Below, piece by piece: positions 3,693 to 37,065 of a stretch of DNA of 45,110 nucleotides (within the stretch, counting starts at the first letter, position 1; the number at the start of each line of letters is the position of its first letter). The stretch is from Candidatus Omnitrophota bacterium. Its GTDB lineage: Bacteria > Omnitrophota > Gorgyraeia > Aquiviventales > Aquiviventaceae. The translations under genes and the position numbers were made by a program. The stretch is from NCBI GenBank assembly GCA_023247215.1, contig JAHFGX010000006.1, forward strand, positions 1-45,110, given 5' to 3'. The notes below the pieces were generated by a model. That model was not told where the DNA came from, did no database searches, and worked only from the letters and a program-made list of their open reading frames with translations.

Positions 3693-4042
3693 GTTGCGAC
3701 GACCTCCGTGACTTCCACCGGCGGCTCACGTTCCCCCGTGGACACCCGATAGGCCTCGGCGACCTCGACGACGAAGATCTTTCCGTCGCCGAACTCGCCG
3801 GTTTGGTTCGCGCGGATGATCGCTTCGATGGTCTCCCGCGCCCGATCGTCCTCCACGACCACCGTAAAGAGCAGCTTCGGCAAGAACGACACGCCGTGCT
3901 GCGCCTGCTCGCCGCGAAGCCCGCGTTGCCGGCCGCGTCCCAGCACCGGGAACACGGAATAGCCGGGGCACCCGACGCGGGCAAGCTCCTCTTTCGTGGC
4001 CCGGGCGCGGTTGCGTCGGACGACGGCCAGGAGCTCAACCAT
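3689..4042 (-). CDS. P-II family protein, NifI2-like (copy A)
   Basis: A 117-residue P-II homologue. Features typical of NifI2 are ATKEELARVGCPG, VLGRGRQRGLRG, SFLPKLLFTVVVEDD and the block NQTGEFGDGKIFVVEV before RVSTGE. The Asn-Gln/Arg-Thr-Gly motif distinguishes NifI2 from NifI1. It overlaps the downstream NifI1-like gene by 4 nt (ATGA), so the pair is made together and could form a mixed complex. The order NifI2 then NifI1 is the reverse of classical nif operons. No nif structural gene is in the window. It overlaps the upstream permease gene by 8 nt. Confidence 0.82.
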   Translation of the reverse strand: MVELLAVVRRNRARATKEELARVGCPGYSVFPVLGRGRQRGLRGEQAQHGVSFLPKLLFTVVVEDDRARETIEAIIRANQTGEFGDGKIFVVEVAEAYRVSTGEREPPVEVTEVVAT

Positions 4043-4772
4043 GGGCCACGAGCAGTTTGCCGGAGGCGATGACCAAGACGACGGCCAGCAGCCGACGCAG
4101 CCACAGGCCGGAACAATAGCGCGCCCCGAACCGGGCGCCGACGAGTCCGCCGGCGAAAGCGGTGACGACCAGCGGGAAGAGCGGCCCGACCTGGAGCCGC
4201 CCCGCGAGCAGGCGCCCGGCCAATCCCGCGAGCGAGTTGACGACGATAAACGCGGCGGAGATGGCCGCGGTCCGTTTCACGTCCGCCCAGCGCAGCAGCA
4301 CCATCAGCGGGCTGAGAAAAATCCCGCCACCCACGCCGACGATCCCTGAAATGAGTCCGAGGGCGCCGCCGACAGGGAGCGCGACGGCCAGGGCCGGCGC
4401 CTGAGCACGCGCCCCGTCTTGCGCGGATGGCAGGCACAGGCGCGCGGCTGCGACGAGCAGACAGCCGGCCAGCAGCCATCGGTACGTCTGCGCGGAGACC
4501 GGCAGCCACCCGCCGACCACGGCCGCCGGAACGGACGAGGCCGCGAACGGCCACAGCAGCCGCCACGAGCCGTGGCCGGCGCGCCAAAACGTCATCCACG
4601 CGGTGCCGGCGACGACCAGGTTCAAGAGCAGGGCACTGGCGCTCATCGCGGTCAAGGCATAGCCGCCAACCAGCGACATCGCGGCCAGATAGCCCGACGC
4701 TCCGCCGTGGCCGACCGAGGCGTAGAGCATCGCCATGAGGAAAATTAGGACAAGGAGGGTAAGGAACGGCAT
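4035..4772 (-). CDS. TauE/SafE (TSUP) family membrane permease
   Basis: A 245-residue, strongly hydrophobic protein with about eight membrane segments. It shows the duplicated motifs of the TSUP family: an N-terminal ASVGHGGASGYLA and an internal GLISGIVGVGGGIFLSPL. The family exports or imports sulfite, sulfoacetate, taurine-derived ions and other small anions. Its position between mog and the P-II pair suggests an anion relevant to nitrate use, such as nitrite, molybdate or sulfite, but the substrate cannot be deduced. The start lies 28 nt inside mog and the end overlaps the NifI2-like gene by 8 nt, so it belongs to the operon. Confidence 0.85.
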   Translation of the reverse strand: MPFLTLLVLIFLMAMLYASVGHGGASGYLAAMSLVGGYALTAMSASALLLNLVVAGTAWMTFWRAGHGSWRLLWPFAASSVPAAVVGGWLPVSAQTYRWLLAGCLLVAAARLCLPSAQDGARAQAPALAVALPVGGALGLISGIVGVGGGIFLSPLMVLLRWADVKRTAAISAAFIVVNSLAGLAGRLLAGRLQVGPLFPLVVTAFAGGLVGARFGARYCSGLWLRRLLAVVLVIASGKLLVAHG

Positions 4773-5266
4773 GCGTGCTCCGATTCCGCATACGGGTTTT
4801 CATCGCGCAGCAACTTCACCGCGTGCCCGAGCACGGGGCGCACCACCGCGAAACATTCCCGGGCCGCCTTCGGGCTCCCGGGGACATTGATGATGAGCGT
4901 CTGCCCGCGCACGCCGACGACGCCGCGCGAGAGCATGGCAAACGGCGTCTGCTTCAGGCTCTCCTGCCGGATCGCTTCCTCCATGCCGGGCAGCCGCTTC
5001 TCGATGACGGACGCCGTCGCTTCCGGGGTCACGTCACGGGGAGAGAGGCCGGTCCCGCCGGTGGTGAACACGACCTCGCACCGCGCCTGATCAGCCAGCC
5101 GGATGAGGGCGGGCGCGATCATCGCCGGATCGTCCGGGACGACGATCATCTCCACCACCTCGGCCCCCGCCTCTTCCAACAACTGTTTCAGGACAGGCCC
5201 GCTCCCATCCGGCCGTTCGCCGCGGAAGGAGCGGTCGCTCACCGTGATCACGGCCGCGCGCATCAT
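4745..5266 (-). CDS. mog: Molybdopterin adenylyltransferase, MogA/MoaB family
   Basis: A 173-residue protein that adenylylates molybdopterin before molybdate insertion by MoeA. It begins AAVITVSDRSFRGE and carries the family signature TTGGTGLSPRDVTPEA around residues 68-84. A second conserved stretch, LIINVPGSPKA, lies near residue 125. MoaB and MogA are not separable by eye, hence the family-level call. The start overlaps the moaC stop by 4 nt. The C-terminus runs 28 nt into the TauE/SafE gene. Confidence 0.9.
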   Translation of the reverse strand: MMRAAVITVSDRSFRGERPDGSGPVLKQLLEEAGAEVVEMIVVPDDPAMIAPALIRLADQARCEVVFTTGGTGLSPRDVTPEATASVIEKRLPGMEEAIRQESLKQTPFAMLSRGVVGVRGQTLIINVPGSPKAARECFAVVRPVLGHAVKLLRDENPYAESEHACRSLPSLS

Positions 5267-5742
5267 TCGCTCCGCTGAAACGCCTGCGTCCCGCCGGTCT
5301 TACTGACCAGCTGCAGGTCGGTGATCGTGGCCGCCGGGTCCACCGCCTTGACCATGTCGTACAGCGCCAGCGAGGCCACCGCTGCCGCCACAAACGCCTC
5401 CAGCTCCACGCCGGTCTTGGCCGTCGCGCGCGTCTGCGCGGTCAGCCGGACGGTATGCGTGGCCGCCTCCGGCGTGAAGGTGATCTCCAGATGCTCCAGC
5501 GGCAACCCATGGCAGAGCGGGATCAGCTCAGCCGTCCGCTTGGCCGCCTGGATGCCGGCGAGCTTCGCCACGGTGTAGGCATCGCCTTTGCGCAACCCTT
5601 GCCGCTCGAGCGCCGCAAAGGCCTCCGGCGACAACCGCACGACGCTCTGGACCACCGCCTGCCGGCGGGACACCCGTTTGGCCCCCACATCCACCATCCG
5701 CGCGCGGCCGTGACGATCAAGATGTGACAGCGATGTCTGCAT
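5263..5742 (-). CDS. moaC: Cyclic pyranopterin monophosphate synthase MoaC
   Basis: Converts the MoaA product 3',8-cyclo-7,8-dihydro-GTP to cyclic pyranopterin monophosphate. The 159-residue protein starts at MQTSLSHLDRHGRARMVDVG; the longer ORF-track start has no homology. Catalytic-site segments are AGIQAAKRTAELIPLCHGLPL and the C-terminal KTGVELEAFVAAAVASLALYDMVK. It overlaps mobA by 26 nt upstream and mog by 4 nt downstream. No moaA is present in the window, so the preceding enzyme must be encoded elsewhere. Confidence 0.95.
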   Translation of the reverse strand: MQTSLSHLDRHGRARMVDVGAKRVSRRQAVVQSVVRLSPEAFAALERQGLRKGDAYTVAKLAGIQAAKRTAELIPLCHGLPLEHLEITFTPEAATHTVRLTAQTRATAKTGVELEAFVAAAVASLALYDMVKAVDPAATITDLQLVSKTGGTQAFQRSE

Positions 5743-6325
5743 GGAGTTGCGCCTGGTCCGCCGGAGTGTTGACGTTCGTAAAGCCGCGCCGAAGCTCAGG
5801 GTCATGGATGGGCACCAGCCGCGCGCGCGGCCGGTCCAGCAGCGCCTGCACCGCCCATGCGCCCTCGTCCAACAGCCGTCCCACATCCCGGCAGGCGGCC
5901 CGGCGACAGATCAGCGGAAACGGCTCGATGCGGCGGTCCGGCGTGGAGCTGGCCACCACGTCGGTACGCGCATCGCAGGCCTGCCGCAACCGCGCCAGCA
6001 CGCGCGGATCCACCCAGGGCATGTCGCAGGGCACAAAGACGTTCAGGTCGGTGCCGGTGTGCATCAGCCCGGTGTAGAGGCCCATCAACGGGCCGCGGTC
6101 CGGCACGAGATCCGTCAAGACGGCGTGGACTGACGGAGGTCCATACACGGCTCGAAGGCGGGCGGCGTTGTGCGCGTTGCCGATCATCACCAGCCGGCCC
6201 ACGCTCGGCCGCAGCCGCTCGATGACGAGCTCGACCAGGGGACGGTCCCCGACCGGCATGAAGGCCTTATCCGACCCCATCCGCGTTGATCGCCCGCCGG
6301 CCAGGACATAGCCGGTCACCATCAC
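5717..6325 (-). CDS. mobA: Molybdenum cofactor guanylyltransferase MobA
   Basis: A 202-residue nucleotidyltransferase that attaches GMP to Mo-molybdopterin, giving the MGD form used by nitrate reductases of the NasA type. The N-terminal GYVLAGGRSTRMGSDKA is the GTP-binding signature. DRGPLMGLYTGL and FVPCDMPWVDP are the expected Mg/GTP-binding segments. The C-terminal TNVNTPADQ is family-typical. Start overlaps moeA by 4 nt (ATGA). Presence of mobA fits the bis-MGD reductase at the end of the operon. Confidence 0.94.
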   Translation of the reverse strand: MMVTGYVLAGGRSTRMGSDKAFMPVGDRPLVELVIERLRPSVGRLVMIGNAHNAARLRAVYGPPSVHAVLTDLVPDRGPLMGLYTGLMHTGTDLNVFVPCDMPWVDPRVLARLRQACDARTDVVASSTPDRRIEPFPLICRRAACRDVGRLLDEGAWAVQALLDRPRARLVPIHDPELRRGFTNVNTPADQAQLHADIAVTS

Positions 6326-7542
6326 CTCGATTCCTCCTTGACCAACACCGGCGTTCCCGCAGGCCAGGGCCCCGCCTCAGCCGTGACCCGAATCCATCCA
6401 TCAGCCTCGACGAGGCTCCGGAGGCGATGCGAGGCCTGGCCGGTCAGCGGCTCGGCCACCCGCTGCCGGCGGGCGTCGCATCGGACGCGGACGAAGTGGG
6501 TGCGCCGCGTGGGTGAGAGGTGCAGGTCGCTGGCGAGCGCGGCCGGCACGGCGTACGGATCCTCCCACGCGCGCCCCATCAACCGATACAACGCCGGCTT
6601 GACGAACTCTTCAAAGGTGACGAAGACCGACACCGGGTTGCCCGGCAGGCCAAACAGGCAGGTCCGGCCGCGCCGGCCGAACCACAGCGGCATGCCGGGT
6701 TTGATGTTCACTTGCCAGAAGACCTCCCGCACGCCGCAGCGGCGGGCCGCGGCCCGAACGAAGTCCTTGTCGCCCACCGACACGCCGCCGGCCACGAGTA
6801 GCACGTCATGCCGAAGCCCCCAGCTGATCTTCTCAACGAGCGAGCGCATCTCATCGCGCGCCACGCCAAGGCGGATGACGCGCGCGCCCGCCTGACGGAC
6901 CAACGCCTCCAACAGGATACCGTTGCTGTCATAGATCCGGCCGGGCTTCAGGCGGCGTCCCGCCGGCTGCAACTCATCGCCGGTCGTCAGGATGGCGACC
7001 GCCGGCGGCCGATACACGCGAACCGTCGCGTGGCCGAGCGCCGCCAACAGCGCGATCTCGTGGGGACGCAGCCGTGTGCCGGCGTCCAGCGCCTGGTCCC
7101 CGCGCCGCAGGTCCTCGCCGCGCCGCCGGATGTTGCGTCCCGCCTCCGGCCAGTTGGCGAAGATGATCCGCCCGCCATGTCGTTGCACCTGTTCCTGCAT
7201 GAGCACGCAATCCGCGCCGCGCGGCACCACCGCCCCCGTCAAAATCCGCACCGCTTCGCCAGCCTGCACGGACCGGCGGTAGGGCGACCCGGCGCTGGCG
7301 CATCCGACGACCGGCAGCGCAACAGGGCCCCCGTTGTGCGGCGGGTGACCGTCCCCATCGGGCCGGCGCACCGCATAACCGTCCACGGCCGCCTGATCGA
7401 ACGGCGGCAGATCCAACGGCGAGGTCACCCCCTTCGACAGGACGCAGCCCAACGCGTCCGCGAGCGGGACCAGCGCCGATCGAGGCGCGGGAGCGGCCTC
7501 GAGGATGCGCTGCAGGGCGTCCTCATACGTGAGCATGTTCAC
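6322..7542 (-). CDS. moeA: Molybdopterin molybdenumtransferase MoeA
   Basis: Inserts molybdate into adenylylated molybdopterin. The 406-residue protein has the full domain set. An N-terminal helical region has LPPFDQAAVDGYAVR. The MoCF-biosynthesis domain has TTGDEL, GRIYDSNG and LLVAGGVSVGDKDFV around residues 180-260. The C-terminal domain has MPLWFGRRGRTCLFGLPGNPVS. It starts 20 nt inside moaE and ends in a 4-nt overlap with mobA. Only one MoeA paralogue is visible. Confidence 0.95.
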   Translation of the reverse strand: MNMLTYEDALQRILEAAPAPRSALVPLADALGCVLSKGVTSPLDLPPFDQAAVDGYAVRRPDGDGHPPHNGGPVALPVVGCASAGSPYRRSVQAGEAVRILTGAVVPRGADCVLMQEQVQRHGGRIIFANWPEAGRNIRRRGEDLRRGDQALDAGTRLRPHEIALLAALGHATVRVYRPPAVAILTTGDELQPAGRRLKPGRIYDSNGILLEALVRQAGARVIRLGVARDEMRSLVEKISWGLRHDVLLVAGGVSVGDKDFVRAAARRCGVREVFWQVNIKPGMPLWFGRRGRTCLFGLPGNPVSVFVTFEEFVKPALYRLMGRAWEDPYAVPAALASDLHLSPTRRTHFVRVRCDARRQRVAEPLTGQASHRLRSLVEADGWIRVTAEAGPWPAGTPVLVKEESR

Positions 7543-7975
7543 CTCCCTCTTCCTCGACCCATCGGGAGGTGCCGTCGTCGTAGAGCTCCCGCTTCCAGAT
7601 CGGCACCTGGTGTTTCACCTGCTCGATGAGAAAGGTTGAGGCGGCGTACGCCGCCTGCCGGTGCCCCGCCGCCGTGAGAATGAGCACGCTGATCTGGCCC
7701 GCCTCGACGAGGCCCAGGCGATGCAGCATCTGCAGATGAGTCAGCGCCCAACGGGCGCGGGCTTCACTCGCCAGCCGCTCAAGCTGCGCGTCGGCCATCT
7801 CGGGGTACGCCGCATAGTCAATGGCGCGCACCCGCCGGGGGCCATGCTGATCGCCCCGGACGATTCCCCGGAAGGTCACCAGCGCCCCCGCCGGTTGTCG
7901 GGCGACCTCGCGCTCCAGGCGGGCCAACCGGTTCCAAGGAATCGGTTGCCTCGTGAAATAGCGCATCGCCGTCAT
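7523..7975 (-). CDS. moaE: Molybdopterin synthase catalytic subunit MoaE
   Basis: Transfers sulfur from MoaD thiocarboxylate to cyclic pyranopterin monophosphate. The 150-residue protein has GALVTFRGIVRGDQHGPRRV near the N-terminus and HRLGLVEAGQISVLI in the middle. The active-site stretch IEQVKHQVPIWKRELYDDG carries the conserved lysines near residues 119-127. It overlaps moaD by 4 nt (ATGA), typical of these partner subunits. Confidence 0.95.
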   Translation of the reverse strand: MTAMRYFTRQPIPWNRLARLEREVARQPAGALVTFRGIVRGDQHGPRRVRAIDYAAYPEMADAQLERLASEARARWALTHLQMLHRLGLVEAGQISVLILTAAGHRQAAYAASTFLIEQVKHQVPIWKRELYDDGTSRWVEEEGGEHAHV

Positions 7976-8217
7976 CCGCCGCTCACCGGCGGGAGGAGCC
8001 CGACCTCATCGCCGTCGTGCAGCCCGTGGTCCCAGGGTTGGTAGTCATGGTTGACCGCCAGGCGGGTCACCGTCCAGCACCGTTCCAACTGCGGATAGCG
8101 CGCCGTCAGCGTGGTTTGCAGATCGCTCCCCCGCGCTCCCTGTCCGAGGGTGAGCCGGCATTCCTCGAGGCCGACGGCATCCTGCAGCCACGAAAAAAAA
8201 CGCACCCGCACCCTCAT
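7972..8217 (-). CDS. moaD: Molybdopterin synthase sulfur carrier subunit MoaD
   Basis: An 81-residue ubiquitin-like protein starting MRVRVRFFSWLQDAVG and ending in the Gly-Gly (PPVSGG) needed for thiocarboxylation. The ORF track starts 60 codons too early inside the P-II gene. The ATG at 8217 has a GGAAG ribosome site just upstream and gives the normal length. It lies 13 nt after the NifI1-like gene and overlaps moaE by 4 nt. Confidence 0.93.
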   Translation of the reverse strand: MRVRVRFFSWLQDAVGLEECRLTLGQGARGSDLQTTLTARYPQLERCWTVTRLAVNHDYQPWDHGLHDGDEVGLLPPVSGG

Positions 8218-8230
8218 CTTCCAAGACCCC

Positions 8231-8572
8231 TCACGCGGTGTGACATGCCGGGGCCTCCACCGTCCGGTGTCCCGTCCGGATGGTATAGGCGGCCTCGACC
8301 GAACTGATGAAAATCTTGCCATCGCCATGCTGGCCGGTCTTCGCGCCGGCTTCGATCGCGGCGACCGCGGCGTCCACGTGCGCATCCTCGACGACAATCA
8401 GGAGCTGGACTTTGGGAAGCTCATCGTAGAGCGTCGCGCCGACTTGGACGCCGCGCTGCTGGCCGCGTCCCAGCACGTCCATCTTGGTCAGCGACACCAC
8501 CCCCGCGTTTTCCAGCGCCGCGACCACCTGCTCCTCCCGCTCCGGGCGCACCATCGCGCGAATCAGTTTCAT
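8231..8572 (-). CDS. P-II family protein, NifI1-like (copy B)
   Basis: A 113-residue P-II homologue close to copy A. It has MKLIRAMVRPERE, KMDVLGRGQQRGVQVG, a T-loop ending YDELPK, TGQHGDGKIFISSV and AYTIRTG. As in copy A there is no GlnB-type uridylylation Tyr context. A short His/Cys-containing tail (PACHTA) is unusual. It overlaps the upstream NifI2-like gene by 4 nt and precedes moaD by 13 nt. The operon therefore starts and continues with matched P-II pairs flanking the Moco genes. Confidence 0.84.
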   Translation of the reverse strand: MKLIRAMVRPEREEQVVAALENAGVVSLTKMDVLGRGQQRGVQVGATLYDELPKVQLLIVVEDAHVDAAVAAIEAGAKTGQHGDGKIFISSVEAAYTIRTGHRTVEAPACHTA

Positions 8573-9108
8573 GGCCTGGCTCCTTCCCGGGGCGTCCCCA
8601 GCGCGCCCCAGAGCATCTCGAATGGCAGCTGCGCCTTCAGGGCTTCGGCGTTGCGCTCCCCCGTGCGGATGCGCACCACGCCCTCCACCGGCAGGACGAA
8701 GACCCGCCCATCGCCCACGTGACCGGTCCGATTCGCGTCCATGATCGCGTGGATGAGGGGGGCGACCTGCGGCTCCTCCACGATCCAGGACACCATCCGC
8801 TTGGGGAGATACCGCACGCGCACGTCCGAGGCTGAGCCGGGTCGCGGCCGCATGCGCACGCCCCGCTCTAGGCCTCGGCCGAGCACGCGGTGCTGGGTAA
8901 AGGCGCAGCAGCGCAGCCGCTGCGCGCGACGCTTCGTCTCATGCCACCGCTCCGGCCGAATGATCGCGAGGACTTCTTTCAACAGCGCGACCGGCTCCTG
9001 CGCCGGCGGGTTCCACGCCTGTAAGATGCCCGGCGCGATCGAACGGGCGTACCCGAACTCCCGCCGCGCCTCCACGCGCACGTTGAGATCTTGCGAGGCT
9101 TCCATCAT
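8569..9108 (-). CDS. P-II family protein, NifI2-like with N-terminal extension (copy B), first gene of the operon
   Basis: The P-II core begins about LKEVLAIIRPERW. It continues through RVLGRGLERGVRM, VRYLPKRMVSWIVEE, DANRTGHVGDGRVFVLPVEG and RVRIRTGER-like residues, which is NifI2-type. From the ATG at 9108 there is a roughly 42-residue extension without P-II homology, plus a 25-residue C-terminal tail. The best -10 element (TATAGT at 9113-9118) would place the transcript start at or inside this ATG. Real translation may therefore begin at a TTG at 8982, preceded by CAGGAG, giving about 137 residues. The start is uncertain; the family call is good. Confidence 0.75.
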   Translation of the reverse strand: MMEASQDLNVRVEARREFGYARSIAPGILQAWNPPAQEPVALLKEVLAIIRPERWHETKRRAQRLRCCAFTQHRVLGRGLERGVRMRPRPGSASDVRVRYLPKRMVSWIVEEPQVAPLIHAIMDANRTGHVGDGRVFVLPVEGVVRIRTGERNAEALKAQLPFEMLWGALGTPREGARP

Positions 9109-9131
9109 GGTGACTATAGAACACCACACGG

Positions 9132-9169
9132 GTTACAACGGCATCACGCGGATGTTAACTTGGCGTAAC
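9132..9169 (-). promoter_or_regulatory. GlnR-like four-box operator upstream of the nitrate/P-II operon (site 1)
   Basis: On the minus strand four 5-bp boxes, each separated by exactly 6 bp, read GTTAC, TTAAC, GTGAT, GTAAC. The same arrangement occurs at 33327-33364 and 33719-33756. The centre lies about 42 bp upstream of the ATG at 9108 and ahead of a TATAGT -10 (9113-9118) that lacks a good -35, as expected for an activated promoter. The outer part is also a perfect dyad (GGATGTTA-N8-TAACATCC, 9150-9173). Spacing matches the gTnAC-n6-GaAAC pattern of actinobacterial GlnR. Binding itself is inference. Confidence 0.75.
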
Positions 9170-26053: not shown

Positions 26054-26373
26054 CCGCGATCTCCGGTCATATGCTTGGGTAATTCGCGCAATTTATTGCG
26101 CGCCTTCGCCGGCTTGGCGCGGCGCTCCTGCTTGTGGACTTTCGCCGCCGCGCACCCCGCCACCCATCCGTGCGGCACGGCGCAGGGCGTGGGAAACACG
26201 CGGCACTCTCCCGACCCAGGCAGATGGGCCGTGGTGAGCACCTGAGCACACGGTTCGACGCCCGGCGTGACCACCGCCGCGTCCTGCGCGCCGGCAACGG
26301 CCACCAGGCTCATGCCACTCAGGAGCGCGCCGCTGAGGCCCATCCACCATCGCTGACATCTCCGGAGGGGCAT
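26038..26373 (-). CDS. Small secreted Cys-containing basic protein, unknown function
   Basis: 111 residues from an ATG sharing one base with the glnA stop (TGATG). Residues 1-30 look like a signal peptide (RWWMGLSGALLSGMSLVAVAGAQ). The mature part has four Cys (EPCAQV, GECRVFPTPCAVPHG, AGCAAAK) and a Lys/Arg-rich tail. I know no family. The coupling to glnA and signal peptide support a real gene. The convergent lpxB overlap of 16 nt is tolerable. Confidence 0.55.
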   Translation of the reverse strand: MPLRRCQRWWMGLSGALLSGMSLVAVAGAQDAAVVTPGVEPCAQVLTTAHLPGSGECRVFPTPCAVPHGWVAGCAAAKVHKQERRAKPAKARNKLRELPKHMTGDRGHEGS

Positions 26374-27725
26374 CACAGCAGCGGGAGGTAGGTCTTCAGC
26401 TCGTAGTCCGTCACGATCCGTTGGAACCGCTCGGCCTCGATGATCTTGTTCTTCAGCACGCTGTCGAACACGTGATCCCCCAGCGCCCGCCGCAGGAACG
26501 CGCTGCCCCGCGCCACCGCGATCGCTTCCGACAAGCTGCCCGGGAGCCTCTCGATCTTCCGCTTGGCCCGTTCCTCGTCGCTGAGCTCCGCCACGTTCAC
26601 CTGGGCGGGCGGCGGAAGCTTGGCGCGGCGTCCGATGCCTTCCAGCCCGGCGGCCAGCATGAGGCTGAAGGCCAGGTACGGGTTGCACGCCGGGTCCGGC
26701 GAGCGCAGCTCGATGCGCGCCGAGGACGCTTTCTTCGGCGTGTACGTGGGAATGCGGATCAAATCCGATCGGCTGCGCTGCGCCCAGGTCACGTAGACCG
26801 GCGCCTCATAGCCCGGGATGAGCCGCTTATAGGAGTTCGCCCACTGGTTCAGCACCAGCGTCATCTCCCGCACATGGGACAGCACCCCGGCCAGGAACGC
26901 CTTCGCCGTCGGCGACAGATGCGCCGCGTCCTTTGGATCGTAAAAGACGTTGCGCTCTCCATGGAAGAGCGACATGTTCACGTGCATCCCGGAGCCGTTG
27001 TGGTAGGTGAGGGGCTTGGGCATGAAGCTGGCGTAGGCGCCATGCTTCATGGCGATTTCCTTGACGACCAGGCGATAGGTCATCACGTTGTCGGCCATCG
27101 TCAGGGCGTCGGTGTAGCGGAAATCAATCTCATGCTGGGAGGGTGCGGCCTCGTGGTGGGAATACTCGATGCCGATCCCCATCTCTTCCATCGCCAGGAT
27201 GATGTCCCGCCGCAGATCGGTGGCGGCATCCAACGGTGTGAGGTCGAAGTAGCCTCCGGTGTCCAGCGGGATCGGCTCCTCCGCGCTCTTGAAGACGAAG
27301 AACTCCAGCTCCGGCCCCACATAGAACGTGTAGCCGGCCTTCGCCGCGCGCGCGAGGGTGCGCTTCAGGACCTGGCGCGGGTCTCCCTCGAAGGGTTGGC
27401 CGCCCGGCCGGTGGATGTCGCAGAACATGCGCGCGACCGCGTTCTCTTTGGGGCGCCACGGCAGGATGCAAAAAGTGTTCGGGTCCGGCATGGCCACCAT
27501 GTCAGACTCCTCAATCCGCGCGAAGCCCTCGATGGCGGAGCCGTCGAAGCCCACGCCCTCCTCCAGCGCCTCCTCCAGCTCATCAATCGTGAGGGCCACG
27601 CTCTTCAACATGCCGAGGATGTCCGAGAACCACAGGCGGATGAACCGGACGTCATGCTCCTTGGCGAGCCGGACCACATAGGCCTTGTCTTTCCGCATCG
27701 AATTTCGGCGTAGCTCTGGCATCAC
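26373..27725 (-). CDS. glnA: Glutamine synthetase, type I-alpha-like (second GS)
   Basis: 450 residues, the compact GSI-alpha length. GVGFDGSAIEGFARIEESDM, the ATP/Glu-binding GPELEFFVF, KPLTYHNGSGMHVNMSL, ANSYKRLIPGYEAPVYVTW and ELRSPDPACNPYLAFSLML are all present. The adenylylation Tyr context of GSI-beta is absent (QVNVAELSDEER), so it would escape GlnE control. The start overlaps the amidotransferase gene by 4 nt. It could be a true GS or a GS-like gamma-glutamyl ligase; conserved active-site segments favour GS activity. Confidence 0.88.
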   Translation of the reverse strand: MMPELRRNSMRKDKAYVVRLAKEHDVRFIRLWFSDILGMLKSVALTIDELEEALEEGVGFDGSAIEGFARIEESDMVAMPDPNTFCILPWRPKENAVARMFCDIHRPGGQPFEGDPRQVLKRTLARAAKAGYTFYVGPELEFFVFKSAEEPIPLDTGGYFDLTPLDAATDLRRDIILAMEEMGIGIEYSHHEAAPSQHEIDFRYTDALTMADNVMTYRLVVKEIAMKHGAYASFMPKPLTYHNGSGMHVNMSLFHGERNVFYDPKDAAHLSPTAKAFLAGVLSHVREMTLVLNQWANSYKRLIPGYEAPVYVTWAQRSRSDLIRIPTYTPKKASSARIELRSPDPACNPYLAFSLMLAAGLEGIGRRAKLPPPAQVNVAELSDEERAKRKIERLPGSLSEAIAVARGSAFLRRALGDHVFDSVLKNKIIEAERFQRIVTDYELKTYLPLL

Positions 27726-28447
27726 GATCTCCTGCTGACAATCTGCTCGGCAAACGCCCTGGCGACATGCCGGGCCAATGCCTGCAACCGGACCACATGC
27801 TGCGGGCTCTGCCGGCGGACGGCCAGCGGATCAATGATCCCGCGCAGCGACTTCAACTCCGCGCGGTTGACGGGCGTGCGCATCCACGCCCGCACGATGG
27901 CCTCCGTCACTTCCAGGTGAAACTGCAGCCCATAGATGCGGTCCTGATACCGGAATCCCTGTTCCGGACACACCGGCGAGCCGGCCAGCCGCACGGCGCC
28001 CTTCGGCAGCGCGAACGTATCGCCATGCCACTGGAACACCGTCTCCGTGGATCCGAACGGCTCGAACAGCGGATCGCCGTCGGCGCCGGGCTCCCGCATC
28101 ACCGGGTACCAGCCGATCTCTTTCTGCGGCGCTTTCGTGACCGAAGCACCCAGCGCCGCGGCCAACAGCTGCGCGCCCAGGCACACGCCCAGGACCGGCA
28201 GCTCCTCCGCGACCACCCGCTTCAAGAACGCCAGCTCCGGCTTCAGGAAGGGATGCGTGGCCTGCTCATAGACGCTCTGCGGTCCGCCCATGACGATGAT
28301 CCCGTCCAGCGCCTCCGGGCTGGGCCAGACGGCCTTCGGGTCGGCGGCGTTGAACGGCCGCAGCGCGCAGCCCGCTTGCTTGAATGCGGCCTCAAACGTT
28401 CCCAACCGCTCGTGCGGGACATGCTGGATGACGAGCAGCCGGCTCAT
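27722..28447 (-). CDS. Class I glutamine amidotransferase (GMP synthase-like)
   Basis: 241 residues. Nucleophile elbow LPVLGVCLGAQLLAAALG (Cys near residue 89), oxyanion region IIVMGGPQSVYE, and catalytic His-Glu in YGLQFHLEVTEA. No synthetase domain is fused, so it either hydrolyses a gamma-glutamyl compound or feeds ammonia to a partner. First gene of a three-gene unit with the I-alpha GS and the small secreted protein. A strong hairpin lies between it and the upstream glnA. Confidence 0.85.
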   Translation of the reverse strand: MSRLLVIQHVPHERLGTFEAAFKQAGCALRPFNAADPKAVWPSPEALDGIIVMGGPQSVYEQATHPFLKPELAFLKRVVAEELPVLGVCLGAQLLAAALGASVTKAPQKEIGWYPVMREPGADGDPLFEPFGSTETVFQWHGDTFALPKGAVRLAGSPVCPEQGFRYQDRIYGLQFHLEVTEAIVRAWMRTPVNRAELKSLRGIIDPLAVRRQSPQHVVRLQALARHVARAFAEQIVSRRS

Positions 28448-28529: not shown

Positions 28530-30062
28530 TCAGGCGTCGAAATACAGATGGAACTCGTACGGATGCGGCCGCAGGCGGACCTTGTCAATCTCCTGCCGCT
28601 TGTACTCCAGCCAGACGCTGATCACGTCCTTGGTGAACACGTCGCCCTTGAGCAGGAACGCTTGGTCCTTCTCGAGCGCGTCCAGCGACTCGGTGAGGGA
28701 GCCCGGCACCTGCTTGGGCGCGCGGTCCGCCGACATCTCATAGATGTTCTCATTGACGACCGGCTTGCCCGGGTCAATGCGGTTCTGGATACCGTCCAGG
28801 CCCGCCATGAGCATCGCCGCGAAGGCGATGTACGGGTTGCAGGACGGATCGGGCGCGCGGAACTCGACGCGCTTGCTCTTCGGGTAGTCCACGTACATCG
28901 GGATGCGGCAGATCGCCGAGCGGTTCCGGGCCGAATAGGCCAGGTTCACCGGCGCCTCGAAGCCGGGGACCAACCGCTTGTACGAGTTGGTCGTCGGGGC
29001 CGCGAAGGCCAGGATCGCCGGCGCGTGCCGGAGCAGCCCGCCGATGTACCACTTGCACAGCTGGCTGATCAGGGCGTACCCGTTCTTGTCGTAGAACAGG
29101 TTCGTGTCGCCGTTGAAGAGGCTCTGGTGGGTGTGCATCCCGGAGCCGTTGTCGCCGAAGAGCGGCTTGGGCATGAAGGTCGCGACCTTGCCGTGCTTCT
29201 TGGCGACGTTCTTGATGATGTACTTGTAGAGCAGCAGGTTGTCCGCTTGTTTGGTCAGCGTCGTGTAGCGGATGTCGATCTCGGCCTGGCCGGCGGTGGC
29301 CACCTCGTGGTGCTGCTTCTCCACCGGGATGCCCGCCTTGATCATTTTCAGGATCATCTCGGTGCGCAGGTCCTGCTGCGAGTCGTGCGGGGGCACCGGG
29401 AAATAGCCTTCCTTGTAGCGGGGCTTGTAGCCGAGGTTCGGCTTCTCGTCCCGGCCGGTGTTCCACTCACCCTCGACGGAATCCACGAAGTAGTAGCTGG
29501 CGTTCTCGGTCGAGTCGAAACGGATGTCGTCGAAGATGAAGAACTCCGCCTCCGGACCCCAGTAGCTCGTCGTGGCGATGCCCGTCTTCTTCAGGTAGGC
29601 CTCGGCCTTCTTGGCGATGTAGCGCGGATCGCGCGTGTAGGGGCCGCGGGTGATGGGGTCGGCGATGTCGCAGACGATGGACACGGTGGGAATCTCGCAG
29701 GCGGGGTCCACGATCGCGGTGCTGGTGTCCAGGTGGAGGTTCATGTCCGATTCCTGGATCTTCTGGAACCCGCGGATCGAGGAGCCGTCGAAGCCGATCC
29801 CGTCCACCCAGATGCCTTTGTTCGGATTCTGGTCGATCTCGCTGATCGGGATGGTGAAGTGCTGCCAGAGGCCGGGCAGGTCGTTGAACTTCAGGTCCAC
29901 GACCTGCGCGTGGCTCTCTTTGATCAGCTTCCAGACCTTCTTGACGCCTTCTTCAGTGGCTCGGAACCCGTTCGCGCTTTTCACGATGGACTCCGCCGCC
30001 CGCACCGCTGCCGAGCCGCTGCGCCGCGCGCCGGCTCGAGGTGATGTTCGCACGCTTGCCAT
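28530..30062 (-). CDS. glnA: Glutamine synthetase, type I-beta, with N-terminal extension
   Basis: 510 residues from an ATG preceded by AAGGAGCGAG. The first 40 or so residues are Ala/Arg/Ser-rich and not part of the usual 470-residue enzyme. Catalytic segments include [66 protein letters not shown] and [34 protein letters not shown] keeps the Tyr (about 441) at the adenylylation site, so covalent control by GlnE is plausible. Follows glnB and amt in the ammonium-assimilation operon. Confidence 0.95.
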
Positions 30063-30108
30063 AATACGTTCTCGCTCCTTTGCCCTTCGTGTTCCATCAT
30101 CATGCTTT

Positions 30109-30146
30109 GAGGAGACCCGCCCGCGCACCGGCGGGCAGGCCTCCTC
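30109..30146 (-). promoter_or_regulatory. Hairpin in the glnB-glnA spacer
   Basis: Nested arms GAGGAG/CTCCTC and CCCGCC/GGCGGG in the 108-nt gap between glnB and glnA. No U-tract follows. It may be an mRNA-processing or attenuation element, or simply set the ratio of glnB and glnA messages. Function inferred only from structure. Confidence 0.45.
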
Positions 30147-30170
30147 AGGCATGCGATCGTTCACTGCCGA

Positions 30171-30509
30171 TTAGATCGCGATCTCGCCCCGCTCTCCGGT
30201 CCGAATCCGAATCACGTCCTTGACGTCGCTGACGAAGATCTTGCCGTCCCCCACCCCGCCGGTCTTGGCTGCCTTAATGACCGCCTGGATGATCCGTTCG
30301 GCATCGGCGTCGCTGACCACCAGCTCGATCTTCACCTTGGGCAGAAACTCGACGCGGTAGGTCTCGCCGCGCCACTGCTGCACGACGCCTTTTTGCTTGC
30401 CGTGCCCCTGGGCCTCCGTGATGGTGATCCCGGGATAGCCGACGGCCTCGATGGCCTTGCGCACTTCATCCACCTTCTCCGGGCGGATGATGGCTTCGAT
30501 TTTCTTCAT
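30171..30509 (-). CDS. glnB: P-II signal protein GlnB/GlnK, canonical
   Basis: 112 residues from MKKIEAIIRPEKVDEV; the ORF-track start adds 19 non-homologous residues. The T-loop is full length and keeps Tyr51 (WRGETYRVEFLPKVKIE), the uridylylation site. KTGGVGDGKIFVSDV and IRIRTGERGEIAI complete the ATP/2-oxoglutarate site. It lies 60 nt after amt and 108 nt before glnA, the usual GlnK-AmtB partnership. It contrasts with the four NifI-like paralogues at 3.4-9.1 kb. Confidence 0.96.
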   Translation of the reverse strand: MKKIEAIIRPEKVDEVRKAIEAVGYPGITITEAQGHGKQKGVVQQWRGETYRVEFLPKVKIELVVSDADAERIIQAVIKAAKTGGVGDGKIFVSDVKDVIRIRTGERGEIAI

Positions 30510-30569
30510 GGTGGCACTCCTCGTCTTTCCCTGTGGCGGAGTTGATTCGGCGACGGCTTCTAACATCGC

Positions 30570-31913
30570 TCAACTCTTTGCCGGCTGGCCGACGCCGACC
30601 GAATACTCCATCGTGAGCGGAATGGTCTTCCGCGTCACGAAGTCCGGGTAGCAGGAGTTGCCGTGCTCGCCGATGTCCAACCCTTCGATCTCTTCCTGAG
30701 CGCTCACGCGAACGCCCATGAGGGCTTTGATCACGGCCCAGCCGATGAGCGACATTGCGAACACCGCCGCCCCGGCACTCACCACACCGATGATCTGAGT
30801 CACGAGCTGCTGGGCCCCGCCACCGAAGAACAGGCCTGAGGTATGCGCCGGGGTCCACTTCGACTCCGCAAAGAGGCCGACACAGAGGGTGCCAAACACC
30901 CCGTTGACCAGGTGGACCGACAACGCCCCGACCGGGTCATCAATACGCGCCTTGTCGAACAGGATCACGGAATACACCACGATGATCCCCGCGAGCAGCC
31001 CGATGATCGCCGAGCTCTCCACGCTGACGAACGCGCACGGCGCGGTGATCGCCACCAGCCCCGCCAGACACCCGTTGATGGTCATCCCCAGGTCCGGTTT
31101 GCCGAGCAGCAACGTCGCCGCGACCGTGGAGCTGAGCATGGCCATCGCCGCCGCCATGTTCGTAGTGATGCAGATGCGCGAAATGGCCTCCACATCGGCC
31201 GCCATCGTCGAGCCCGGGTTAAATCCGAACCAACCGAGCCAGAGCACGAAGCACCCGATCAAGCCGAGCGACAGATTATGCCCGGGAATGGCGTTGGCTG
31301 ACCCGTCCTTGTTGTACTTGCCGATGCGGGGACCCAGCGTCAGGACGCCGGCGAGCGCCGCCCATCCGCCAATCGAGTGCACCTGGGTGGAGCCGGCGAA
31401 GTCCAAGAAGCCCTTCTGCGCCAACCACCCGCCGCCCCAGATCCAGTGGCCGACGACGGGATAGATGACGGCGGTGAGGAGCAAGCTGAACACAATAAAC
31501 GAGAAGTACTTGATCCGCTCCGCCACCGCCCCGGAGACGATCGTCGCCGCCGTACCGCAGAACACCAACTGGAAAAAGAACTTGGCCAACAACGGCACCC
31601 CGGTCCAGTTCAAGGACGAATAGACGCCTTGATAGGCCTGCGCGACGGCGGGGCTATTGTCGGCCCCATGGAGCAACCACAGGCCTTGCAGCCCGAGGAG
31701 GGGCGAGCCGTCGCCGAACATCACGCCAAAACCGAGCATCCAGAACCCGACGGTCGAACACGCGAACACGATGAAGTTCTTCGAGAGGATGTTCACCGCG
31801 TTCTTCGCCCGGCAAAACCCCGATTCCACACACGCGAAGCCCAAGTTCATGAAGAACACGAGCATCGCGGTGACGAGCACCCACAGCGTGTCCGCGACGA
31901 CTTTCGGATCCAT
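30570..31913 (-). CDS. amt: Ammonium transporter Amt
   Basis: 447 residues, 11 membrane helices. The twin-histidine pore residues sit in AGSTQVHSIGGWAALAG and LSVHLVNGVFGTL. NLGFACVESGFCRAKNAVNILSKN and FGFNPGSTM are family landmarks. No separate signal peptide is obvious. The C-terminal tail with EEIEGLDIGEHGNSCYPDF is the part gated by GlnK. The gene lies between a porin and glnB, all read from the operator-bearing promoter upstream of the porin. Confidence 0.96.
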   Translation of the reverse strand: MDPKVVADTLWVLVTAMLVFFMNLGFACVESGFCRAKNAVNILSKNFIVFACSTVGFWMLGFGVMFGDGSPLLGLQGLWLLHGADNSPAVAQAYQGVYSSLNWTGVPLLAKFFFQLVFCGTAATIVSGAVAERIKYFSFIVFSLLLTAVIYPVVGHWIWGGGWLAQKGFLDFAGSTQVHSIGGWAALAGVLTLGPRIGKYNKDGSANAIPGHNLSLGLIGCFVLWLGWFGFNPGSTMAADVEAISRICITTNMAAAMAMLSSTVAATLLLGKPDLGMTINGCLAGLVAITAPCAFVSVESSAIIGLLAGIIVVYSVILFDKARIDDPVGALSVHLVNGVFGTLCVGLFAESKWTPAHTSGLFFGGGAQQLVTQIIGVVSAGAAVFAMSLIGWAVIKALMGVRVSAQEEIEGLDIGEHGNSCYPDFVTRKTIPLTMEYSVGVGQPAKS

Positions 31914-33266: not shown

Positions 33267-33326
33267 CGTCCCTCCGGGTTCATGGTTCCACCGAACTAAA
33301 AAAGCCCTATTAGTCTATCGCAGCAC

Positions 33327-33364
33327 GTTACAACCACAAGACGCCAATGTTAAATCTATGTAAC
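33327..33364 (-). promoter_or_regulatory. GlnR-like four-box operator upstream of porin-amt-glnB-glnA (site 2)
   Basis: Minus-strand boxes GTTAC, TTAAC, GTCTT, GTAAC, each 6 bp apart, with the same register as sites 1 and 3. Sites 1 and 2 share GATGTTAC-N6-TTAACAT and a GTTGTAAC 12 bp further on. It lies 61-98 bp upstream of the porin ATG and overlaps the 3' end of the winged-helix gene. A possible -10 (TAGACT) follows without a consensus -35. Confidence 0.75.
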
Positions 33365-33691
33365 ATCACCAGCCAGGAACCGGTAGCCTTCTCCGGCTTC
33401 CTCAATCCACCGCCGCCTCCCATCACGTTCCAGCTTGGATCTCAGGTGCCGGATGTGCTCATCCAGCATCCGCAGCCCCCCCGCATCGTGCCGGCCCATC
33501 CCTTCCTCCAAGAGCCGGCGCTTGGTGACCACATGGTCCGGGTGGGTGGCCAGGTAGACCAGGAGCGCGTACTCCCGGTAGGTCAGCACCACGGGCTGGG
33601 CCGCCAAGAGGACGCGGTAGCGCTCCAAGTCAATGACCAGGTCGCCGAATTGCATGATGAGGGATGCGTCCATGACGTCCGTTGCCGCCAT
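33356..33691 (-). CDS. Receiver-less OmpR/PhoB-type winged-helix DNA-binding protein (GlnR-like candidate)
   Basis: 111 residues consisting almost only of a trans_reg_C effector domain: FGDLVIDLERYRVLL, VVLTYREYALLVYLATHPDHVVTKRRLLE and the recognition helix MLDEHIRHLRSKLE with a wing EEAGEGYRFL. No receiver domain and no frameshifted remnant upstream. It carries a four-box operator 28-65 bp upstream of its own start and another at its 3' end that serves the porin-amt operon. Context makes it the prime candidate for the nitrogen regulator, by analogy with GlnR, also an OmpR-family orphan. The analogy is inference. Confidence 0.8.
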   Translation of the reverse strand: MAATDVMDASLIMQFGDLVIDLERYRVLLAAQPVVLTYREYALLVYLATHPDHVVTKRRLLEEGMGRHDAGGLRMLDEHIRHLRSKLERDGRRRWIEEAGEGYRFLAGDVT

Positions 33692-33718
33692 CTAATGGAA
33701 TGACCATAGCGGCGTGAT

Positions 33719-33756
33719 GTTACGCGCAGATCACGCGGCCGTTAAATCACCGTGAC
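33719..33756 (-). promoter_or_regulatory. GlnR-like four-box operator upstream of the winged-helix gene (site 3)
   Basis: Minus-strand boxes GTCAC, TTAAC, GTGAT, GTAAC with exact 6-bp spacers, the third box identical to site 1. Lies 28-65 bp upstream of the winged-helix start, suggesting autoregulation. Confidence 0.72.
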
Positions 33757-33781: not shown

Positions 33782-34525
33782 TTAGTTGGCAGGACGCTTG
33801 CGACAAAGCGCAATGAGATCAAGGGCCGCCGAGGAGAGATTGTGTGACACGGTGAAATCGCTGGGAGAAGCCTGCTGATAGAATCGCGCTACGAGATTGA
33901 GCTGGGCCGGTCCGATTCTCTCCAACCCCCATCTCTTGAGCCGCTGGTAAAACCGATGCCTCCACGTCAGATGCAGACCGTAGAGCTCAACAGCCGGAAA
34001 CGCCTGCTGGAGCGTCTCTCGAAGCTCTGGCGCCGTGAATTCCTTTTCATGGTAGATCAGTTTTTCGTACGGGCGGCCTGGCTTCATGTTGTGGGCCAGG
34101 TTCAACGTCGAGAGACAACACACGCCCTCGGGCCGCAGGACGCGAGACAGTTCGGACAGGTACCGGCTCAACAGCGACTCAGGGATATGCTCAATGACTT
34201 GGAACGAGCAAATCACATCGAACGAGTCATTTGGAAACTCGAGATAGGTCGCATCCATGTGCTGGAAATGAAGGTTCGGCCGTTGATATTCCGCAGCGGC
34301 TCGAGGAATATTGCCTGGGGCCAGGTCAATGCCGACCACTTCAGGGGCCACCTCCGCCAAATAGTTCGCCCCGTAGCCATTCCCGAATCCCACTTCCAAG
34401 ACCCGCTTTCCCACCGCATACGCCTTCACAAAGGCATAGGCAGAGAGATGCTGGGCGACAAACCGAGGATCATGTTCCTCTGGGTCCAATCCGCAAATAT
34501 GCGCTTCAGCCTGTGCACGAGTCAT
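33782..34525 (-). CDS. SAM-dependent methyltransferase (class I, type 11)
   Basis: 247 residues. Motif I VLEVGFGNGYGANYLAEV, acidic ribose-binding VVGIDLAPGN, motif DATYLEFPNDSFDVICSFQVIEHI and RVLRPEGVCCLSTLN are typical of class I methyltransferases. Substrate unknown; no operon partner. It has its own strong promoter. Slightly lower GC than flanking genes may mean a separate history. Could act on a lipid, sugar or quinone. Confidence 0.85.
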   Translation of the reverse strand: MTRAQAEAHICGLDPEEHDPRFVAQHLSAYAFVKAYAVGKRVLEVGFGNGYGANYLAEVAPEVVGIDLAPGNIPRAAAEYQRPNLHFQHMDATYLEFPNDSFDVICSFQVIEHIPESLLSRYLSELSRVLRPEGVCCLSTLNLAHNMKPGRPYEKLIYHEKEFTAPELRETLQQAFPAVELYGLHLTWRHRFYQRLKRWGLERIGPAQLNLVARFYQQASPSDFTVSHNLSSAALDLIALCRKRPAN

Positions 34526-34634: not shown

Positions 34635-35354
34635 TTAGGGGCGTTTGGACGTGCGGCGGGGAGGGGGCGCGTGGTGGTCGTCAGGCGGGGTGAACTTGTA
34701 GCCGACGTTGCGGATGGTGGCGACGTAGATCTCGCCGCCGGACTCGATCTTGGAGCGCAGGCGGCGGATGTGCACGTCCACCGTCCGCGTGCCGCCGTAG
34801 TAATCGTAGCCCCACACCTTGTCCAGCAGCGCCTCGCGGCTGAACACCCGGCCGGGGTGCGCGCTGAGGAATTTCAGCAGCTCAAACTCCTTGTAGGTCA
34901 AATCCACCGGGGCGTCGTTGATGCGCACCTCGTAGCGGTCGAAATCAATGGTCAGCGAGCCCACCTGCAGCCCGTGCTTGAATGCCACCTTCTGGAGCTT
35001 CCAGAGCAGGAACTTCAGCCGCTGGACGAGCCGCTGCACGCTCACCGGCAGGGTGAGGTAGTCGTCCACGCCCCACGAGACGTCCAGATGCTCCAGCTGC
35101 GCTTCGGTCAGCAGCGCCACCACCGGCGATTCTTTGAAGACGTCGTTGCGCTTGATCGCTTGGCACAATCGCCCCGGCGTGACCTGGCACTGCTCCAGGT
35201 CCGCGATGACCAGGTCCGCCTTCGGCGGCTCCAGATCGTCCTTGGTCGCCTCCGCTGAGCCGAGGACCGTCAGGGCGAACCCCGCCTCATGCAAACCGGA
35301 CTTGAGCGGCTTGCGCGCGTCGGCCTGGTCCGTGACCAGCAGGATCCGGTGCAT
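34635..35354 (-). CDS. Atypical OmpR-family response regulator
   Basis: 239 residues from MHRILLVTDQAD; the ORF-track start lies in nadE. The receiver has D9, D52 (VIADLEQ) and T83, but the conserved switch Lys is Leu (DDYLTLPVS) and one of the acidic pair is missing. The effector is a full winged helix (LTYKEFELLKFLSAHPGRVFSREALLDKVWGYDYYGGTRTVDVHIRRLRSK). No histidine kinase is nearby. Start overlaps the nadE stop by one base (TGATG). Such receivers often work without phosphorylation, as in GlnR. It is an alternative candidate for binding the four-box operators. Confidence 0.87.
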   Translation of the reverse strand: MHRILLVTDQADARKPLKSGLHEAGFALTVLGSAEATKDDLEPPKADLVIADLEQCQVTPGRLCQAIKRNDVFKESPVVALLTEAQLEHLDVSWGVDDYLTLPVSVQRLVQRLKFLLWKLQKVAFKHGLQVGSLTIDFDRYEVRINDAPVDLTYKEFELLKFLSAHPGRVFSREALLDKVWGYDYYGGTRTVDVHIRRLRSKIESGGEIYVATIRNVGYKFTPPDDHHAPPPRRTSKRP

Positions 35355-37042
35355 CAGGAGGCCTGGTACCGGTTGGTGATGGGCACGCGGCGGTCCTTCC
35401 CGAACGATTTGGGGGTGATTTTCACGCCCGGCGGCGCCTGGCGGCGCTTGTATTCGCTGCGGTCCACCATGCGGATGACCTGTTGGACGGTCTCCGAGGC
35501 GAACTGGGTCCGCTCCAGAATCTGCTGGAGGCTGCGGTCTTCCTCGACGTAGGCCTTCACGATGGCGTCCAGCATGGGGTACGGCGGCAACGTGTCCTGG
35601 TCCGTCTGGTTCGGCGCCAACTCCGCGGTCGGCGCGCGCGTGAACACCCGCTCCGGAATGGGCCCCCGCCGTTGGCGGGGCAGGCGGTCGGCCCCCCGGC
35701 GCTGCCGAAGGCGCGCCAACTGATAGACCAGCGTCTTGGGCACGTCCTTGATCACCGCGAACCCTCCTGCCATGTCGCCGTAGAGCGTGCAGTACCCGGT
35801 GGCCATTTCGCTTTTGTTGCCGGTCGTCAGGACCAGCCAGCCGAACTTGTTGGAGAGCGCCATCAGCAGCGTGCCCCGGATGCGGGCCTGCAGGTTCTGC
35901 TCCGCTATGTCCGACAGCCGGCCGCCTGCCCCGCCAACGGCCGGGGCCCACAGCGGCTGCAGGGTCTTCAAAAACGCCTTAAAGCACGGCTCGATGGAGA
36001 GCTCTTCACAACGAATCCCCAGCGCCTGCGCCAGCTGCCGTGCATCGTCCTGCGTCTCGGTCGAGGAAAACCGCGAGGGCATCACGACCCCGACCACCTG
36101 CGCCGTCCCCACGGCGTCCGCCGCCAGACACGCCACCAGGCTGGAGTCAATGCCGCCGGAGAGACCCAGGACCACCGTGGCAAATCCGTTCTTGCGCACG
36201 TAGTCCCGCGTCCCCAGCACCAGGGCGTCGTAGATCTCCTCCAGCGGCGGCTGCGCCGGCCGCCGCGTCGGCGGCACTGGAGGCAATTCAGCCGCCGACG
36301 GCGCCGAACCGACGGACAGATCCGCCAGCACCAGGTCTTCGCGGAACTGCCAGCCGTTCGCCACCACGCGGCCGTCCGCGTTCAGGACCAGGCCGGCGCC
36401 GTCAAACACCAGCTCATCCTGGCCGCCAACCAGATTGCAGTACCCGATAGCCATTCGCCCGGACCGGGCGCGCTCAGCGAACAACTGCCGCCGCTGATGC
36501 GCCTTCCCGGCATGATACGGGCTGGCGGACAGGTTGGCCAGCACGTGGCACTTCAGGGCGGCCAAGCGCTTCACCGGCTCGCCCTGCCACAGGTCTTCGC
36601 AAATCGTCACACCCACCCGCACCGACCCCATCCGGAACAGCAGGCTGTCGCGGCCGGGGGTGAAGTAGCGCTGCTCATCGAAGACCCCGTAATTGGGCAG
36701 GCACTGCTTATGGTACACGGCGACCACGCGCCCGTCCGCCAGCACGGCGGCGGCGTTGAACAGCCGCCCCCGCCGGTCGCGATCCACGTAGCCGACGAGG
36801 GCGACGATGCCCTCAGTGGAACGGGCGACCCGCGCTATGGCCGCGAGGTTGTCGTCAATGAAGGCCGGCTTGAGAAGCAGGTCTTCCGGCGGATAGCCGG
36901 TGACCGCCAGCTCCGGCAGGACCACCAGGTCCGCGCGCCAGGCCTTGGCGCGCAGGATGGCCTCGCGGATCCGCTCGGTATTGCCGGATAAATCGCCGAC
37001 CGTCACATTCAGTTGGGCTAAGGCAAGGCGCAGGAACGGCAT
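35354..37042 (-). CDS. nadE: Glutamine-dependent NAD+ synthetase
   Basis: 562 residues from MPFLRLALAQLNVTVGD. The N-terminal nitrilase-type glutaminase has the Glu-Lys-Cys triad in LPELAVTGYPPEDLL, YHKQCLPNYGVFDE and GVTICEDLW. The C-terminal synthetase has the PP-loop LGLSGGIDSSLVA and TTGNKSEMATGYCTLYGDMAGGF. It amidates nicotinate adenine dinucleotide with glutamine-derived ammonia, linking NAD synthesis to nitrogen status. Preceded by GGAGGGGG, very close to the ATG; a TTG five codons upstream is an alternative start. Confidence 0.95.
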   Translation of the reverse strand: MPFLRLALAQLNVTVGDLSGNTERIREAILRAKAWRADLVVLPELAVTGYPPEDLLLKPAFIDDNLAAIARVARSTEGIVALVGYVDRDRRGRLFNAAAVLADGRVVAVYHKQCLPNYGVFDEQRYFTPGRDSLLFRMGSVRVGVTICEDLWQGEPVKRLAALKCHVLANLSASPYHAGKAHQRRQLFAERARSGRMAIGYCNLVGGQDELVFDGAGLVLNADGRVVANGWQFREDLVLADLSVGSAPSAAELPPVPPTRRPAQPPLEEIYDALVLGTRDYVRKNGFATVVLGLSGGIDSSLVACLAADAVGTAQVVGVVMPSRFSSTETQDDARQLAQALGIRCEELSIEPCFKAFLKTLQPLWAPAVGGAGGRLSDIAEQNLQARIRGTLLMALSNKFGWLVLTTGNKSEMATGYCTLYGDMAGGFAVIKDVPKTLVYQLARLRQRRGADRLPRQRRGPIPERVFTRAPTAELAPNQTDQDTLPPYPMLDAIVKAYVEEDRSLQQILERTQFASETVQQVIRMVDRSEYKRRQAPPGVKITPKSFGKDRRVPITNRYQAS

Positions 37043-37065
37043 ACCCCCTCCGGGCAAGCCGCTTA

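Follow-up and report, generated by a model that had tools for sequence, protein, structure and literature searches.

GlnR has been reviewed as the nitrogen regulator of actinomycetes (PMC10704036). The window examined here, the whole stretch of 45,110 nucleotides, comes from Candidatus Omnitrophota, a phylum placed in the PVC group by NCBI, and the porin and TonB-type receptor genes that the window contains are consistent with an outer membrane. The question raised by this locus is whether three four-box sequences found on its minus strand are operators of a GlnR-type regulator and, if so, which of two OmpR-type proteins encoded nearby would bind them. The three sequences are as follows.

9132-9169, minus strand: site 1, putative GlnR-type operator of four boxes, preceding the operon of P-II, molybdenum cofactor and NarK-type genes
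33327-33364, minus strand: site 2 (site B of the family), putative operator before porin-amt-glnB-glnA
33719-33756, minus strand: site 3 (site A of the family), putative operator before the receiver-less winged-helix gene

The initial annotation had described three in-register sites with exact 6-bp spacers, and all of them were recovered with 0 mismatches: each is a 38-mer in which four 5-bp boxes follow one another as direct repeats, every spacer being 6 bp. These are the sole matches within 3 mismatches in the window, and no site is expected in the shuffled window sequence (100 dinucleotide shuffles, 3 mismatches allowed). The genome scan that the annotation had proposed clarified that the motif is not scattered: no match beyond the three sites was found within 3 mismatches in the whole draft genome (1,456,971 bases, 57 contigs). 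A search of the genome with a 35-site profile also returned the three sites only; because this profile was built from sites including the window's three, it tests the absence of sites elsewhere, not the quality of the three. The actinomycete b-box GAAAC was not found in the Omnitrophota sites, which have TTAAC/GTAAC there. A palindromic arrangement was considered, as the outer boxes in the window (GTTAC and GTAAC) are mutually reverse-complementary, but box 1 is GTAAC in most B sites (position 3 is A in 13 of 17), and the boxes are therefore direct repeats. The 3' end of the receiver-less gene extends into site 2, with its stop codon in the first spacer.

The genes behind and around the sites are listed below.

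2152-8572, minus strand: remaining site 1 operon, with P-II, moaD, moaE, moeA, mobA, moaC, mog, TauE, P-II, P-II and NarK-type MFS transporter genes (moaE and moeA named from sequence)
8569-9108, minus strand: P-II gene, first behind site 1 (PF00543)
26373-27725, minus strand: second glutamine synthetase-type gene (TIGR00653), kept in relatives
27722-28447, minus strand: glutamine amidotransferase-like gene, kept behind glnA in relatives
28530-30164, minus strand: glnA, glutamine synthetase (TIGR00653); the extent of the reading frame is mechanical and the start likely lies downstream
30171-30566, minus strand: glnB, P-II protein
30570-31913, minus strand: amt, ammonium transporter, the only one of the genome
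31980-33266, minus strand: BBP2-type outer-membrane porin (PF07642)
33356-33691, minus strand: receiver-less GlnR-type winged-helix protein of 111 aa (PF00486)
34635-35354, minus strand: predicted GlnR orthologue with a pseudo-receiver and an OmpR-type DNA-binding domain
35354-37057, minus strand: nadE, NAD synthetase (PF02540/PF00795), whose stop codon overlaps the glnR start

This gene content agrees with the annotation, in which the sites had been placed before the nitrate/P-II genes, the porin-amt-glnB-glnA genes and the receiver-less gene. For the first gene behind site 1, the P-II identity was borne out, and the start was revised from 9129 to 9108 (ATG) as the most likely one. The site 1 operon holds four P-II genes, two at its head (8569-9108 and 8231-8572) and two adjoining the NarK-type transporter gene (3689-4042 and 3378-3692), in addition to glnB. 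The nadE/glnR overlap (TGATG) is located at 35352-35358, and nadE adjoins glnR also in families f18, f20 and f45. A methyltransferase gene (33782-34525) lies between glnR and site A in the window; in the relatives whose loci were read, none was seen at that place. Nitrogen control by Sigma-54/NtrC was also considered: no Sigma54_DBD was found in this 92%-complete genome, yet the domain is present in most of the family, so that its absence here is not general and says little.

The motif is also kept in orthologous promoters. Most genera of the window's family carry it, and the order common to the fetched loci is nadE, the two-domain regulator gene, site A, the receiver-less gene, site B, porin, amt, glnB and glnA, with some insertions and contig breaks between relatives. 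Sites A and B are both within 3 mismatches in 14 family loci, and the second site is weaker in three more. When the 38 positions are aligned, the box bases are nearly invariant and many spacer bases vary. The A sites are intergenic or nearly so, while the B sites often reach into the 3' part of the receiver-less gene, and for this reason the conservation of B-site spacers may be partly coding. In several genomes with this overlap, box 1 is translated as Val-Thr, and translation would stop within the spacer or the second box (protein ends such as VTPN and VTSI). Sites in family f8 are weak or three-boxed, and no site was found in four genomes of the window's family that have GlnR (G014, G020, G024 and G026), whose fetched glnR contigs are without the amt cluster. 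Near matches at 3 mismatches on the class level were ignored, as they are as frequent as those of the reversed control pattern.

Scanning the relatives with the profile disclosed other strong sites with nitrogen genes behind them. Among the well-scoring sites with a readable downstream gene, further sites precede GAF-ANTAR genes (five genomes), nirB, a type III glutamine synthetase gene, moaE and the glnA of family f18. The genes behind the well-scoring sites are a nitrogen assimilation set, comprising ammonium, glutamine synthetase and nitrate/nitrite genes; some weaker matches and two sites of family f36 precede genes without a Pfam match. In one genome (G021), the GAF-ANTAR gene is followed by P-II and moaD genes like those behind site 1 of the window. 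The GAF-ANTAR genes behind four-box sites (L033 8089-9348, L034 3544-4317, L035 3086-4312, L233 5358-6128 and L235 6837-8081) encode one or two GAF domains and are of the RNA-binding antiterminator type. A site before such a gene would place nitrate genes under both GlnR and antitermination.

As for the regulator, several lines of sequence evidence identify the 34635-35354 protein as a predicted GlnR orthologue. It matches PF21695 (GlnR_1st) at 29.3 bits against a cut-off of 27 and PF00486 at 96.6 bits, and 10 of the 12 orthologues show PF21695 with E<=1e-3. The best PDB matches of its profile are GlnR structures, 8hih (Mycobacterium tuberculosis) and 8hig (Saccharopolyspora erythraea) at E ~1e-54, with 8hml (S. 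erythraea GlnR) also among the best; the next match is RegX3 at 1.7e-41. For the two regulators, the NCBIfam matches were all of a generic response-regulator kind and far below cut-off. Among 67 proteins placed in a tree, 48 GlnR-type rows from Omnitrophota, Chloroflexota and actinobacteria are separated by a branch of 100/100 from the 19 best-scoring paralogues, which are a limited sample of the outgroup, and the actinobacterial GlnR proteins are nested beside the Omnitrophota rows of families f18 and f45 (95/81). The switch Thr and Lys of the receiver are lost in all GlnR-type rows; the receiver Asp is kept in the window's family and is Asn in family f8. GlnR has been described as working without Asp phosphorylation (PMC10704036), and no histidine kinase gene adjoins the regulator gene, its neighbors being nadE and the methyltransferase gene, or the winged-helix gene in relatives. 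An Arg located two positions beyond the receiver Asp, part of a charge network described as stabilizing the actinobacterial GlnR dimer (Amycolatopsis GlnR), was found in 0 of 30 Omnitrophota rows versus 10 of 10 actinobacterial ones, and it may mark the actinobacterial branch only.

The 33356-33691 protein consists of a single Trans_reg_C domain (PF00486), and an N-terminal receiver was not found in its 111 residues. Its best PDB matches by sequence are GlnR, and a domain tree places it on the GlnR side (96) on a long stem of 2.45; its AlphaFold model (pLDDT 85) shows an OmpR-type winged helix; by fold, GlnR did not stand out from the other OmpR-type domains compared, whereas by sequence it did. 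The protein occurs only in the window's family and its sister family (f1 and f2), outside of which its profile found GlnR-type proteins only, at a much lower score. It is regarded as a DNA-binding domain derived from GlnR. Its recognition helix reads VDVHVRRLR, against DEHIRHLR/K in GlnR, and the wing Arg is replaced. Because these DNA-contact arginines are changed, the protein is more likely a target and modulator of the predicted regulon than its main binder.

The position of the -10 element relative to the operator was then read in 36 Omnitrophota sites. TANNNT begins 10 nt past the last box in 26 of them and 9 nt past it in 5, with 5 occurrences in total at all remaining offsets from 0 to 30; in the other Omnitrophota families, the hexamer is found at 9-10 nt in 14 of 16 sites. 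No -35-like consensus was seen in the operator, where the -35 positions read ATCTGC-like, not TTGACA. The corresponding hexamers in the window are the following.

33703-33708, minus strand: predicted -10 hexamer TATGGT of site 3, 10 nt past the last box
33312-33317, minus strand: predicted -10 hexamer TAGACT of site 2, 9 nt past the last box
9113-9118, minus strand: candidate -10 TATAGT of site 1, read by eye, 13 nt past the last box and an outlier in spacing

As a positive control, amt upstream regions from the class of Nonomuraea and from other actinobacteria were scanned for actinomycete-type boxes. A four-box site beating nearly all shuffles was found in 31 of 37 regions, and in 27 of these 31 amtB promoters NANNNT begins exactly 10 nt past the last box, while none of the other offsets between 0 and 16 has more than 4 occurrences. 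GlnR is an activator at actinomycete amtB promoters. The fixed -10 spacing without a -35 element fits the geometry of an activator that would replace the -35 element. Since the -10 hexamer was neither fitted nor part of any search pattern used to find the sites, the agreement with actinomycete amtB counts as independent support, and we regard it as the strongest argument for a predicted GlnR activator site. In several genomes, about 10 nt separate the -10 hexamer from the start codon of the receiver-less gene (33691-33708 in the window), which suggests a leaderless or nearly leaderless transcript.

Taken with the conservation in relatives, the GlnR orthologue in the same cluster, the nitrogen targets and the amtB-like spacing, which all speak for the GlnR-type operator that had been proposed, the three sites are predicted to be operators of the 34635-35354 protein that activate nitrogen genes in place of a -35 element, a reading to which we assign a probability of roughly 0.86. 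The four GTNAC-type boxes, spaced by 11 bp, would be occupied on one face of the DNA by GlnR monomers, of which there are probably four, arranged as two dimers head to tail. At sites 2 and 3, as in the relatives, a -35 element is not apparent and the last box ends 9-10 nt short of the -10 hexamer, so that bound GlnR would take over the -35 contact and recruit a sigma-70-type RNA polymerase. Under nitrogen scarcity, ammonium uptake and assimilation (porin-amt-glnB-glnA) would be switched on, as would nitrate assimilation with the molybdenum cofactor and P-II genes, and the receiver-less GlnR paralogue, which would probably tune the response.

The alternative that the receiver-less protein is the main binder, with the two-domain protein doing something else, has in its favor that the gene lies between two sites, is retained together with them within the family and encodes a GlnR-type DNA-binding domain; the annotation had also named this protein as a possible binder of the regulon. 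Nevertheless, sites are present where this gene is absent, namely in L057, L038, G005, families f18 and f36, and HRbin24 (unclassified Bacteria at NCBI, grouping with Chloroflexota in the regulator tree), so that the two-domain protein is the likely binder; in addition, the helix and wing arginines common to the two-domain protein and actinobacterial GlnR are those lost in the receiver-less one. We accordingly find this alternative improbable. Sites were found in 20 of 27 genomes with a GlnR orthologue versus 1 of 32 without one, and within the window's family and its sister family in 19 of 23 genomes with GlnR versus 0 of 5 without, although the relatedness of the genomes and the contigs missing from incomplete MAGs confound these counts. 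This co-occurrence also bears on the idea that the sites belong to another OmpR-type regulator, for example a PhoB-like one. Direct repeats of 11 bp are common to the fold, pho boxes have the same period, and such paralogues exist in these genomes; they are, however, present in families without sites, and the targets are nitrogen genes, leaving this idea very little weight.

A different possibility is that GlnR binds the sites and represses, blocking the promoter. A protein bound at the operator would lie over the -35 region and could hinder the polymerase, and actinomycete GlnR represses some genes. Yet the near-fixed spacing of 9-10 nt and the missing -35-like consensus fit an activator, and the actinomycete amtB promoters activated by GlnR have the same spacing; repression thus seems unlikely, if slightly less so than binding chiefly by the receiver-less protein. 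That the sites arose by chance or as an assembly artefact might be supposed of a draft MAG, but the shuffles and the recurrence in independent MAGs make this practically negligible, conservation having already refuted it.

The predicted GlnR system resembles the actinomycete GlnR regulon in its four 5-bp boxes with an 11-bp period, in a two-domain OmpR-type regulator with a pseudo-receiver and an almost identical recognition helix, in its targets (amt, glutamine synthetase, nirB and nitrate genes) and in a -10 element beginning 10 nt past the last box. The consensus of the actinomycete operator is gTnAc-n6-GaAAc-n6-GtnAC-n6-GAAAc, and a GTnAC-n6-GTnAC box is also listed for S. venezuelae (PMC10704036). 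In contrast, the b-boxes in Omnitrophota are TTAAC/GTAAC instead of GAAAC, box 3 is well kept there while being degenerate in most sampled actinomycete amtB promoters, and the Omnitrophota protein is without the Arg after the receiver Asp; an outer-membrane porin in the operon, the receiver-less paralogue, the PVC-group host and the location of glnR beside nadE are further differences. PhoB and its pho box share the OmpR-type fold, the 11-bp direct repeats and an operator in place of the -35 element with the present system, which differs from them in box sequence and target genes, the RegX3/PhoB-type paralogues falling outside the GlnR clade. GlnRII of Streptomyces keeps an almost identical recognition helix and an N-terminal part (PMC10704036): there, too, a single organism has another GlnR-type DNA-binding domain in addition to GlnR, whereas the Omnitrophota protein lacks a receiver and its helix is altered.

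GlnR also appears to be present in the Chloroflexota sampled. The GlnR-like regulators of Chloroflexota and of HRbin24 fall in the same clade as those of Omnitrophota, and four-box sites before amt were found in a Dehalococcoidia MAG and in HRbin24, where the order is glnR, four-box site, amt, glnB and glnA. Unlike in Omnitrophota, the boxes in these organisms are all GTAAC-like, no fixed -10 spacing was found in the few Chloroflexota sites examined, and HRbin24 has neither a receiver-less gene nor a porin gene between glnR and amt. Our literature search found no paper reporting GlnR in Omnitrophota, which is weak evidence of novelty as most subscription journals lay outside the search; papers combining GlnR with Chloroflexi/Chloroflexota concern other matters, to judge by title and abstract. 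The GlnR-type operator and regulon predicted in Omnitrophota are of a known kind, the host phylum and the receiver-less component being new.

A tentative scenario, which we hold to be somewhat less probable than its negation, is that GlnR did not originate in actinobacteria but is an older nitrogen regulator common to Omnitrophota, Chloroflexota and Actinomycetota, and that its DNA-binding domain was duplicated and its receiver lost in one Omnitrophota order, where the product came under GlnR control as a feedback modulator acting through altered binding to DNA or through contacts with proteins. If an uncultured PVC-group phylum has a complete GlnR regulon, with an unchanged distance from operator to promoter, this would change the view of the occurrence and origin of GlnR, and the receiver-less paralogue would add a component new to such circuits. 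The regulon also gives a testable prediction of nitrogen control, and its sites offer a natural, divergent set for studying how GlnR reads DNA. Two minor observations were made in Chloroflexota: in one MAG, a second gene for an OmpR-type DNA-binding domain (L102 9252-9836) lies directly upstream of glnR, and a Dehalococcoidia amt promoter (L212 around 2856-2915) seems to have six boxes at the 11-bp period.
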